Translations under genes and position numbers: made by a program | Shown here: positions 27,796-30,359 of the stretch, in pieces | Layout of the letters: the number at the start of each line of letters is the position of its first letter | How positions within the stretch are numbered: the stretch's first letter is position 1 | DNA from: Leptolyngbyaceae cyanobacterium M33_DOE_097 | GTDB lineage: Bacteria > Cyanobacteriota > Cyanobacteriia > Leptolyngbyales > Leptolyngbyaceae | NCBI GenBank assembly: GCA_015296075.1 | Contig: DVDV01000005.1 | Span: forward strand, 1 to 43,603 | Length of the DNA stretch: 43,603 bases | Direction: 5' to 3' | The notes under the pieces: generated by a model | Database searches by the model: none | The model's input: only the letters and a program-made list of their open reading frames with translations | What the model was told of the DNA's origin: nothing

Positions 27796-27889
27796 CAGGA
27801 ACAAGTTTCGTTCTATAACAACTTTTTAGTTAGAGCATTTTTTTAGGTTCCCTTTAGTCCACTTTTGCAGCACATTTCAGGACACGTTG

Positions 27890-29494
27890 GTGACACTGCA
27901 AACAGAAGAACAACCCCAGGTTGCATCCTTAGAGTTAAACCGCCAGATGATTATGATTCTGGATTTCGGTTCACAGTACTCTGAGCTGATCGCTCGCCGC
28001 ATTCGTGAGACGCAGGTTTACTCAGAGGTGTTGTCTTATCGCACCTCTGCCGAGCAGTTGCGCCAGCTTAGCCCCAAGGGCATTATTCTTTCGGGTGGTC
28101 CTAATTCGGTTTACGATGCGGGTGCCCCCCACTGCGACCCAGAGATCTGGAACTTAGGTATTCCGATTTTGGGTGTGTGCTACGGCATGCAGTTGATGGT
28201 GCAAGAGCTAGGTGGCACGGTCGAACGGAGCGATCGCGGCGAGTATGGCAAAGCCTCGCTCTATATCGATGATCCGACTGACCTTCTAACCAATGTCGAA
28301 GATGGCACCACGATGTGGATGAGCCACGGTGACTCGGTGACGAATCTGCCAGAAGGGTTTGAGCTATTGGCTCATACCGAAAACACGCCCTGCGCGGCGA
28401 TCGCTCACCAAGACAAAAAATTGTATGGCGTGCAGTTCCACCCAGAGGTCGTGCATTCGGTTGGCGGTCTGGCGCTGATCCGCAATTTTGTCTATCACAT
28501 CTGTGGTTGCGAACCGACCTGGACAACGGCTGCCTTTGTTGAAGAAGCAGTCCGCGAGATTCGGGCACGGGTTGGCGATAAGCGCGTTTTACTGGCTCTT
28601 TCGGGTGGAGTTGACTCCTCAACCCTTGCGTTTTTACTGCACCGCGCGATCGGGGATCAGTTGACGTGTATGTTTATCGACCAGGGCTTTATGCGGAAGT
28701 ATGAGCCTGAGCGGTTAATCAAGTTATTTGATGAACAGTTCCACATTCCCGTGCAGTATGTGGATGCCAAGCAGCGATTTTTAGACGCGATCGCGGGGGT
28801 AACTGATCCCGAAGAGAAGCGGAAGCGAATTGGGCACGAGTTTATTAGCGTGTTTGAAACCGAATCAAAACGGCTTGGCCCCTTTGATTATCTGGCTCAA
28901 GGTACGCTTTACCCTGACGTGATTGAATCGGCAGATACCAACGTCGATCCGCAAACGGGTGAACGCGTGGCTGTGAAAATCAAGAGCCACCACAATGTGG
29001 GCGGTTTACCAAAAGACTTACGGTTTAAGCTGGTTGAGCCTCTGCGGAAGCTGTTTAAAGACGAAGTGCGAAAGGTTGGGCGCAGCATTGGTCTACCCGA
29101 AGAGATCGTGCAACGGCACCCCTTTCCTGGCCCTGGTCTGGCCATTCGGATTTTGGGCGATGTTACGGAAGAGCGCCTTGAAATCTTGCGCGATGCTGAC
29201 CTGATCGTGCGGCAAGAAATCAACCGCAGTGGTAGCTATCACCAACTCTGGCAAGCATTCGCCGTCTTGCTGCCAATTCGCAGTGTGGGTGTGATGGGTG
29301 ACCAGCGTACCTACGCTTATCCCATCGTGTTGCGCTTTGTCACAAGTGAAGATGGCATGACGGCTGATTGGGCGCGTGTGCCGTATGACTTGTTAGAAAC
29401 GATCGCCACTCGCATCGTGAACGAAGTTCCGGGTGTGAACCGAGTGGTTTACGACATCACCTCTAAGCCGCCTGGCACGATCGAGTGGGAGTAA
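27890..29494 (+). CDS. guaA: GMP synthase (glutamine-hydrolysing)
   Basis: A 534-residue cytosolic enzyme that converts XMP to GMP using ATP and glutamine. The N-terminal class I glutamine amidotransferase domain (about 20-210) has GGPNSVY and the nucleophile motif GVCYGMQ, with HPEV later. The ATP pyrophosphatase domain (about 220-410) has the P-loop SGGVDSS. The C-terminal dimerisation domain ends [12 protein letters not shown] at 27890 is chosen (CAGGA upstream); a TTG one codon earlier is possible. The stop codon lies inside the first of two identical terminator hairpins. The closing codons GAG-TGG-GAG are part of the duplicated unit. Confidence 0.96.
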
Positions 29495-29537
29495 AACTCC
29501 ACGTTTTTTCGAGTGGGAGTAAAACTCCACGTTTTTT
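29482..29537 (+). terminator. duplicated terminator containing the guaA stop codon
   Basis: A 28-base unit (29482-29509) is repeated exactly at 29510-29537. Each has GTGG-g-AGT, loop AAA, ACTCCAC and then six T, so each is an intrinsic terminator with one bulged G. The guaA TAA (29492-29494) sits in the first hairpin. Confidence 0.8.
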
Positions 29538-29546
29538 AGAGTGTGG

Positions 29547-29579
29547 CTAGCCCTTTGCAATGCGAAGGGCTAGTTTTTT
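29547..29579 (+). terminator. third terminator after guaA
   Basis: CTAGCCCTT (29547-29555) and AAGGGCTAG (29565-29573) pair perfectly and are followed by six T. It lies ten bases after the duplicated pair. Confidence 0.88.
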
Positions 29580-29906
29580 ATATTGCATCAAGGCTAGAAG
29601 TTCTCAAAGCTAAGGACGGCTTGCAATCTAAAGCAACTGCCGCATGAATTAGGCGGACAAGAAATAAAACAGTCGCCACCCTGATCTCACAACATTTCAA
29701 AGTGCAGCTTCACGAACCTTGTCCTGCCAAATAATTAGCGACCAAATAAAAGTCAATTAAATTGCTTATGCCTGTGGAAAACGATTGCCAGGTGTGGAAA
29801 AACTCAGCAAAAGCTGTGGAAAACCTGGCAAATGTGTGGAAAACCCAAATTTTTCTTACGTTTTTGAAAACCTAAAAAGTCAACTTAATTATTTTTTAAT
29901 ATTTAC
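29580..29906. other. convergent intergenic region with DnaA-type boxes
   Basis: About 330 bases between guaA and the VOC gene without a coding frame. It contains four TGTGGAAAA boxes (29773-29843) and a strongly AT-rich stretch from about 29845 to 29906. Confidence 0.6.
29773..29843 (+). promoter_or_regulatory. array of four DnaA-box-like 9-mers
   Basis: TGTGGAAAA occurs at 29773-29781, 29793-29801, 29815-29823 and 29835-29843, all in the same orientation. The complement is TTTTCCACA, the form of DnaA box reported for cyanobacteria. Start-to-start spacing is 20, 22 and 20 bases, about two helical turns, so the boxes lie on one face of DNA. An AT-rich segment follows. This could be oriC or a DnaA-titrating or regulatory site. 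Confidence 0.65.
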
Positions 29907-30359
29907 TTAACCGACTGTAACACGATCGCCGATTTCATTAAATTCTCGACTGCCAAAAACGGCCTCTGGGTAACGATAGAACTTAAACTCCAGCAGATTA
30001 TAGAACGGATCTTGCAAAAAGAAAGTGCGATGCTCTAGCGGCATTCCAGGGAATCGATGCTTGGGGGCGATCGCAAACTCTAGCCCCTTTTTTTCGGCTC
30101 GGTCTAACAGCGCTTCCCAATCCGCTTCGTTAGGGAAAATCAGGCCAAAATGACGGGGATAGATGCCTTTTTGCGGAATCATTGCTTCCTCTGCCACATG
30201 CGCAACGAGTTGATGCCCATAAAGGTTCAGGATGACGGATACAGGACTTTCGCGCCCGATTTGGCACCCCAAACCCTCGCCATAAAATGCTTTCGTCTGA
30301 GGAATGTTAGCAACGGGAAAAGCCAAGTGAAAAATGGTTGGCGGTATCGACTGATCCAT
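29907..30359 (-). CDS. VOC (glyoxalase/dioxygenase fold) protein
   Basis: About 150 residues. The start FHLAFPVANIPQTKAFYGEGLGC and the later LEHRTFFLQDPFYNLLEFKFY give the paired beta-alpha-beta-beta-beta modules of the vicinal oxygen chelate superfamily. Putative metal ligands are the His in FHLAF, the His in the YPRHFGLIF strand, and the Glu in LLEFKFY. Members include glyoxalases, extradiol dioxygenases and resistance proteins; the substrate is not readable, but the PHLAFPV-type N terminus resembles glyoxalase-like dioxygenase proteins of cyanobacteria. I use ATG 30359; the frame extends to a TTG at 30419 without support. It diverges from the DUF92 gene by 63 bases. Confidence 0.8.
   Translation of the reverse strand: MDQSIPPTIFHLAFPVANIPQTKAFYGEGLGCQIGRESPVSVILNLYGHQLVAHVAEEAMIPQKGIYPRHFGLIFPNEADWEALLDRAEKKGLEFAIAPKHRFPGMPLEHRTFFLQDPFYNLLEFKFYRYPEAVFGSREFNEIGDRVTVG

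Follow-up and report, generated by a model that had tools for sequence, protein, structure and literature searches.

A helically phased array of co-oriented DnaA boxes 3' of guaA in cyanobacteria, a candidate DnaA-control site apart from oriC

The 43,603 nt stretch of DNA from Leptolyngbyaceae cyanobacterium M33_DOE_097 that was analysed here in full (contig DVDV01000005.1 of assembly GCA_015296075.1; hereafter the window) contains four identical copies of a 9-mer in the short non-coding segment between the gene for GMP synthase and a gene for a glyoxalase/VOC-family protein. The features of this region are as follows.

27887 to 29494, plus strand: guaA, GMP synthase (Pfam GATase and GMP_synt_C), the conserved neighbour of the array in many relatives
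29485 to 29575, plus strand: terminator-like hairpins (consensus matches only) separating guaA from the array, one of them duplicated and another of 14 pairs
29773 to 29781, plus strand: DnaA box 1, exact match to TGTGGAAAA
29793 to 29801, plus strand: DnaA box 2, exact match
29815 to 29823, plus strand: DnaA box 3, exact match
29835 to 29843, plus strand: DnaA box 4, exact match
29844 to 29906, no strand assigned: AT-rich flank, its first 60 bp 80% AT; most other guaA arrays are without such a flank
29907 to 30359, minus strand: gene for a glyoxalase/VOC-family protein (Pfam PF00903), convergent; this far side varies among genomes

A preliminary description of this DNA had noted four copies of TGTGGAAAA (TTTTCCACA on the opposite strand) in one orientation, starting at 29773, 29793, 29815 and 29835, spaced by about two helical turns and followed by some 60 AT-rich bases, and in all these respects it was accurate. 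The copies are exact matches, all on the plus strand, with start-to-start distances of 20, 22 and 20 bp, each about two helical turns, and the 60 bases past the last box are 80% AT. The description had taken the 9-mer for the cyanobacterial form of the DnaA box, and it is indeed the same sequence as the box of the studied origins, as reported in PMC4674748. The convergence of the flanking genes (guaA plus, glyoxalase/VOC minus) and the absence from the window of dnaA and dnaN, both of which are found on other contigs, were likewise confirmed. Box counts given below refer to exact boxes only, unless stated otherwise. No further exact TGTGGAAAA occurs on either strand of the window beyond the four boxes; by chance 0.60 exact boxes would be expected there, and at least four were obtained in none of 100 shuffles. 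By a rough Poisson estimate, clusters as tight as this array are expected about 3e-10 times per genome.

The end of guaA overlaps a 28-bp tandem repeat (29481-29543; 2.2 copies, 97% matches), the unit of which consists of the last guaA codons plus the terminator-like hairpin, resembling a duplicated guaA 3' end. An RNA element at the array site was considered and rejected, the sole Rfam match in the window and in loci L005-L007 being a tRNA at 1522-1595.

In the home genome the 9-mer itself is not enriched, as 64 exact copies of TGTGGAAAA compare with 62 of the reversed 9-mer, and clustering is its standout feature. The comparison of box clusters throughout the genome that had been proposed in the preliminary description was carried out and located them in four places, on contigs C9, C34, C126 and C435, the last being the contig of the window and the sole case in which a 100-bp span holds four exact boxes. 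C34 has three exact boxes and one TGTGGAAAG, and C126 a three-box cluster. On C9, four exact boxes in both orientations are found within 300 bp between dnaN (C9:1644-2786) and ndhJ, and a fifth lies inside ndhJ. The C126 array (C126:14429-14495, equivalent to L007:5430-5496), with spacings of 12 and 46 between its three boxes, is situated at the 3' end of a gene that is split across two overlapping ORFs and encodes an inosine-uridine nucleoside hydrolase.

With its four DnaA boxes next to a segment of 80% AT, the site is suggestive of a replication origin, and the preliminary description had offered an oriC or, alternatively, a datA-like or other regulatory DnaA site. The first part of this proposal was not supported, and we regard it as highly improbable that the array is the chromosomal or a second origin. 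The dnaN neighbourhood together with this motif is, according to PMC4674748, the place of the cyanobacterial oriC, and since the dnaN-ndhJ cluster on C9 has both that place and that motif, the window array is probably not oriC. Adjacency to dnaN or dnaA, the usual situation of the origin in most cyanobacteria, is lacking, as dnaN, dnaA (C348:19255) and the array reside on three separate contigs (C9, C348 and C435), and the two box orientations that typify a cyanobacterial oriC are found at the home dnaN cluster but not in the array, where all four boxes are on the plus strand. A second, weaker DnaN-family match, on C176, has no box nearby. Conservation of an AT-rich unwinding element is also missing: the AT-rich flank was rejected for that role because the sequence following 49 arrays averages 59% AT, the window ranking 4th of 38. 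Around the home dnaA gene (L008, on C348), no TGTGGWWAR box was detected within 7.9 kb; a box pair just 3' of dnaA is present, judged from coordinates, in several genomes, G005, G012, G021 and G145 among them.

The relatives allow the same question to be asked of dnaN itself. Several closed or near-closed genomes with a guaA array also possess a box cluster at dnaN (G006, G007, G015, G023, G029, G033, G057 and G062), and one relative with a guaA array, G051, has no box cluster there. Within 800 bp upstream of dnaN, at 30 loci from closed or near-closed relatives, at least two exact boxes were found at 21, in both orientations at 20 of these 21, and no exact box at nine, so that dnaN is a good but imperfect marker of oriC. 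While the nine loci leave some room for an origin elsewhere, both orientations at 20 of 30 dnaN loci stand against an opposite-strand pair at 0 of 50 guaA loci. GC skew adds nothing on the place of the origin, since the home assembly is split into 437 contigs and no significant polarity emerged from 20 samples, each of 15 kb, taken from the closed relatives G033 and G007. The guaA position of G033 (1.75 Mb) scores the same as the best split (1.85-2.0 Mb) and dnaN scores negative, which would be compatible with an origin at guaA, but this split is non-significant and below the permutation mean, and the best split of G007 (1.65-1.8 Mb) is at neither guaA nor dnaN. Irregular or disturbed skew is described for some cyanobacteria in PMC7198777 and PMC5987646.

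The position of the array next to guaA is conserved in many relatives. When 50 oriented guaA loci were picked by GuaA similarity, independently of boxes, a close pair of same-strand boxes was found to follow guaA, on the strand of that gene, in 38, the array lying 15-1,086 bp beyond the stop codon. No pair is found 3' of guaA in the other 12, and none of the 50 has an upstream pair or, on either side, an opposite-strand pair. In a second set of 80 guaA loci, a pair within 1.5 kb 3' of the gene was present in 13, including those of Elainella, Trichocoleus, Kastovskya, Phormidium tanganyikae, Kaiparowitsia and Leptolyngbya FACHB-8, and absent from 67; less than 1.5 kb of downstream DNA was available for nine of the 80, seven of them among the 67 negatives, and some of the 80 may coincide with contigs of the G genomes. 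Two loci of this set (L198 and L227) have arrays farther from guaA, and no record of Nostoc, Anabaena, Calothrix, Fischerella or Scytonema in it shows a downstream pair. By family, guaA arrays occur in 10 of the 25 examined (those fetched or among the matches listed, of 39 families). This tally uses the family labels that the tool assigned and draws on related, hence non-independent, genomes; of its ten positives, four (f7, f19, f28 and f38) were read from coordinates only. The tested genomes of the other 15 families have no guaA array, nor does G078, which belongs to the same family as G036, where the array is accompanied by two opposite boxes nearby; G041 also has a guaA array. The guaA position is not universal.

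One Chroococcidiopsidaceae locus (L204) has a co-oriented pair upstream of guaA and none downstream. One box of opposite orientation, located 15 bp ahead of the first, was seen in 2 of 38 arrays of the first set and 4 of 13 of the second; loci with this additional box, which creates a small inverted pair, are L080, L082, L200, L209, L219 and L225.

Across 49 distinct guaA arrays, in all of which the boxes are exact because the search required it, spacer sequences vary and the spacing is kept, most often as 21+20 (17 of 53) or 21+31 (15 of 53); the 20/22/20 four-box layout of the window is a local variant of these arrays. What lies beyond the array is far less constant. A VOC gene occupies the far side in the window; of 55 loci, 12 have a cation-efflux gene no more than about 1.05 kb away and 11 have DUF3318. 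The first ORF on that side, as called mechanically, runs convergently to guaA in 25 of 38 cases, is co-directional with it in 10 and absent in 3. Moreover, in two genomes an array with guaA-type spacing stands beside the cation-efflux gene (G022) or beside DUF3318 (G026), and guaA is located elsewhere without an array. From this varying far side, and from its persistence away from guaA in G022 and G026, the array seems to be kept for its own sake. In closed or near-closed relatives it is about 0.2-2.6 Mb away from dnaN, and a fixed distance or orientation relative to dnaN was rejected, as the coordinates vary and the orientation is mixed among the closed genomes compared.

Arrays of this kind extend beyond guaA. 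Two same-orientation boxes 14-44 bp apart, the pattern by which pairs were defined, occur in 50 of 58 relatives, where the reversed-pattern control gave 0 matches; pairs in opposite orientation were found in 13 of the 58. Across the class, 222 of 291 genomes have a close same-strand pair, compared with 4 matches in all for the reversed pattern. Consecutive same-strand boxes are separated by distances that peak at 11, 20-22, 30-33, 42-44 and 51-55 bp, and for helical phasing at 10.5 bp the vector length R is 0.87 when all 292 distinct distances are taken and 0.79 when the count is restricted to the 120 lying outside 18-23 bp, in a set that includes loci fetched by the 14-44 bp search and in which distances of 9-12 and 46-65 bp are unselected by it. 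In 166 distinct arrays the boxes tend to take the form C-TGTGGAAAA-C: of their 427 boxes, 297 are preceded and 304 followed by C, compared with 25 of 65 isolated boxes that are followed by C.

We favour the view that the array is a selected DnaA site outside oriC, to which we would assign a probability of roughly 0.85. The likely ligand would be DnaA, given the motif, its shared use at dnaN and the published binding of DnaA to the box: in PMC7198777, the DnaA proteins of three cyanobacteria are reported to bind the S. elongatus oriC with its boxes. It is on the positional conservation and the phasing that the other part of the preliminary proposal, a datA-like or other regulatory DnaA site, is upheld. 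A relic of common descent with no present function could account for the patchy distribution but hardly for box spacing and polarity that are kept across 10 families while the spacers diverge, and we give this explanation very little credence. A structural or nucleoid site, where DnaA or another factor would sit on the array in the service of chromosome organisation or segregation, accords with the helical phasing, the preferred polarity and the few sites per genome among the matches listed for relatives. This role is nevertheless improbable, as the motif is a DnaA box that is common to the dnaN region, and orientation relative to dnaN is mixed when the coordinates of closed genomes are compared.

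A second conserved site exists 5' of DUF2811. When 43 loci (3 from the home genome and 40 fetched) were clustered, the recurrent neighbours of arrays were dnaN, hemJ (UPF0093) and DUF2811, and in the home genome the C34 array is upstream of a DUF2811 ORF that is followed by hemJ. In a set of 30 genomes, one per family and picked for having at least one pair somewhere (f1 and pairless families such as f14 are outside this set), at least two boxes precede the best DUF2811 match in 21, one box in 6 and none in 3, and a downstream pair is found in one. The boxes mostly lie about 250-640 bp before the gene and always read TTTTCCACA on its strand; at the guaA and DUF2811 sites alike, TGTGGAAAA is read in the direction that leads away from the conserved neighbour. 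The short DUF2811 protein itself was detected in 30 of 30 cyanobacterial genomes searched and in 1 of 14 controls (Synechococcus elongatus); no paper on it was found in the open-access literature searched, and the idea that it has a known DNA-binding fold was dropped, as no Pfam or PDB sequence match supported it.

With its distance of about 250-640 bp upstream of the gene, the DUF2811 site would also fit transcriptional control. This is the main rival to our interpretation and has more in its favour at DUF2811 than at guaA: DnaA bound to the arrays would couple the neighbouring genes (guaA, the far-side gene, DUF2811-hemJ) to the replication cycle. Its appeal lies in the second conserved site being 5' of DUF2811, with hemJ next in several genomes, and in the statement in PMC7198777, citing others, that DnaA regulates genes from non-oriC boxes elsewhere. 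The guaA array, however, is placed 3' of the gene, 15-1,086 bp past its stop and, in the window, behind terminator-like hairpins; the far-side genes vary, and G022 and G026 retain a guaA-type array that has no guaA next to it. We consider transcriptional control unlikely.

Kept as it is beside guaA in many related cyanobacteria, the array looks like a genuine, uncharacterised DnaA-control site, and we hold the odds to be about even or slightly better that its job is the control of DnaA availability or activity, a view suggested by analogy with the systems discussed below. DnaA would bind the four co-oriented boxes, about 21 bp apart, on one face of the helix and with one polarity, and the bound DnaA might form an ordered, polar and cooperative complex. 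Such a complex could alter the amount of active DnaA available to oriC, and the simplest way would be titration, as with the DnaA-box clusters of B. subtilis; alternatively, it might shift the nucleotide state of DnaA, as do datA or DARS. Against a role in availability, four boxes are a small sink.

The DARS elements of E. coli reactivate ADP-DnaA, and their boxes presumably differ in number and order from those of the guaA array. The likeness is that DARS1 and DARS2, too, are few conserved non-coding DnaA sites per chromosome, as described in PMC4585315; DARS1, DARS2 and datA are credited in a 2025 report (PMC12371093) with a large fraction of the titration power of the E. coli chromosome. 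With datA, the array shares the character of a short non-coding DnaA-box site away from oriC. The location of datA is reported to be conserved between E. coli strains (PMC4585315, PMC5010248), and datA is described as acting with IHF in the inactivation of DnaA-ATP (PMC10950094). A fixed relative distance from oriC is, however, not a property of the guaA array, the distance of which to dnaN varies. In B. subtilis, DnaA-box clusters are described as titrating DnaA-ATP and repressing untimely initiation (PMC5010248, PMC4585315). The array resembles them in being a DnaA-box cluster outside oriC, in having consensus boxes away from oriC (the latter placed here by dnaN and its boxes) and in its conservation in related genomes (38 of 50 loci, 10 of 25 families). 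It differs in that the B. subtilis clusters are described as oriC-proximal, whereas the guaA array is about 0.2-2.6 Mb from dnaN, co-oriented and helically phased. A DnaA-box cluster near oriC that represses untimely initiation is also reported for Streptomyces coelicolor (PMC4585315), but this is an oriC-near cluster in a different phylum, while the guaA array is untied to the dnaN region. The box sequence of the array is identical to that of the dnaN-linked TTTTCCACA cluster of the cyanobacterial oriC, as given in PMC4674748; both orientations occur in 20 of the 21 dnaN-linked clusters with at least two boxes, whereas the guaA array has a single one.

The arrays carry a warning that, in cyanobacteria, a TTTTCCACA cluster alone is insufficient to call oriC. 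The putative oriC of N. punctiforme was called, according to PMC5987646, from a DnaA-box cluster that is two locus tags from dnaN and adjacent to neither dnaA nor dnaN. ChIP-qPCR with cyanobacterial DnaA, as presented in PMC6478999 and PMC7198777, covered oriC and one control region. Among the open-access papers listed in our searches we found no description of such cyanobacterial arrays, which is not proof of absence. Being few, short, conserved and non-coding, the arrays offer defined targets for asking what sets initiation in polyploid cyanobacteria, titration or a switching of DnaA, and for what reason some of these organisms can dispense with DnaA.

As a tentative extension, which we think doubtful as a whole, cyanobacteria may possess, besides oriC, a small and ancient group of DnaA 'control arrays' located 3' of guaA and 5' of DUF2811(-hemJ). 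These would have evolved apart from datA/DARS and from the B. subtilis clusters, would consist of boxes in one orientation and in helical phase, on which DnaA would assemble as a polar filament, and would have been lost where DnaA control was relaxed. If true, such a set would fill a gap in the picture of how polyploid cyanobacteria control initiation.

Three genomes without dnaA (G169, G175 and G181; 99% complete, best DnaA match with E values of 4e-5 to 8e-4) have 0 pairs each, which fits a link with DnaA and is suggestive only, the result being weak since 66 further genomes also have 0 pairs and since it is confounded by family. In all, 69 of the 291 genomes are without any close pair, though 281 of the 291 have DnaA above the cut-off; these zero-pair genomes are 33 of 35 in f2, 6 of 6 in f14, 7 of 8 in f16, 9 of 16 in f32 (including G169) and 14 scattered ones (including G175 and G181).

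Three co-oriented TGTGGAAAA boxes at the searched spacing were also found in 87 stretches of IMG/VR viral contigs, four of which (L373, L378, L389 and L395) have three such triples each; these may be phage origins, DnaA decoys or host DNA.
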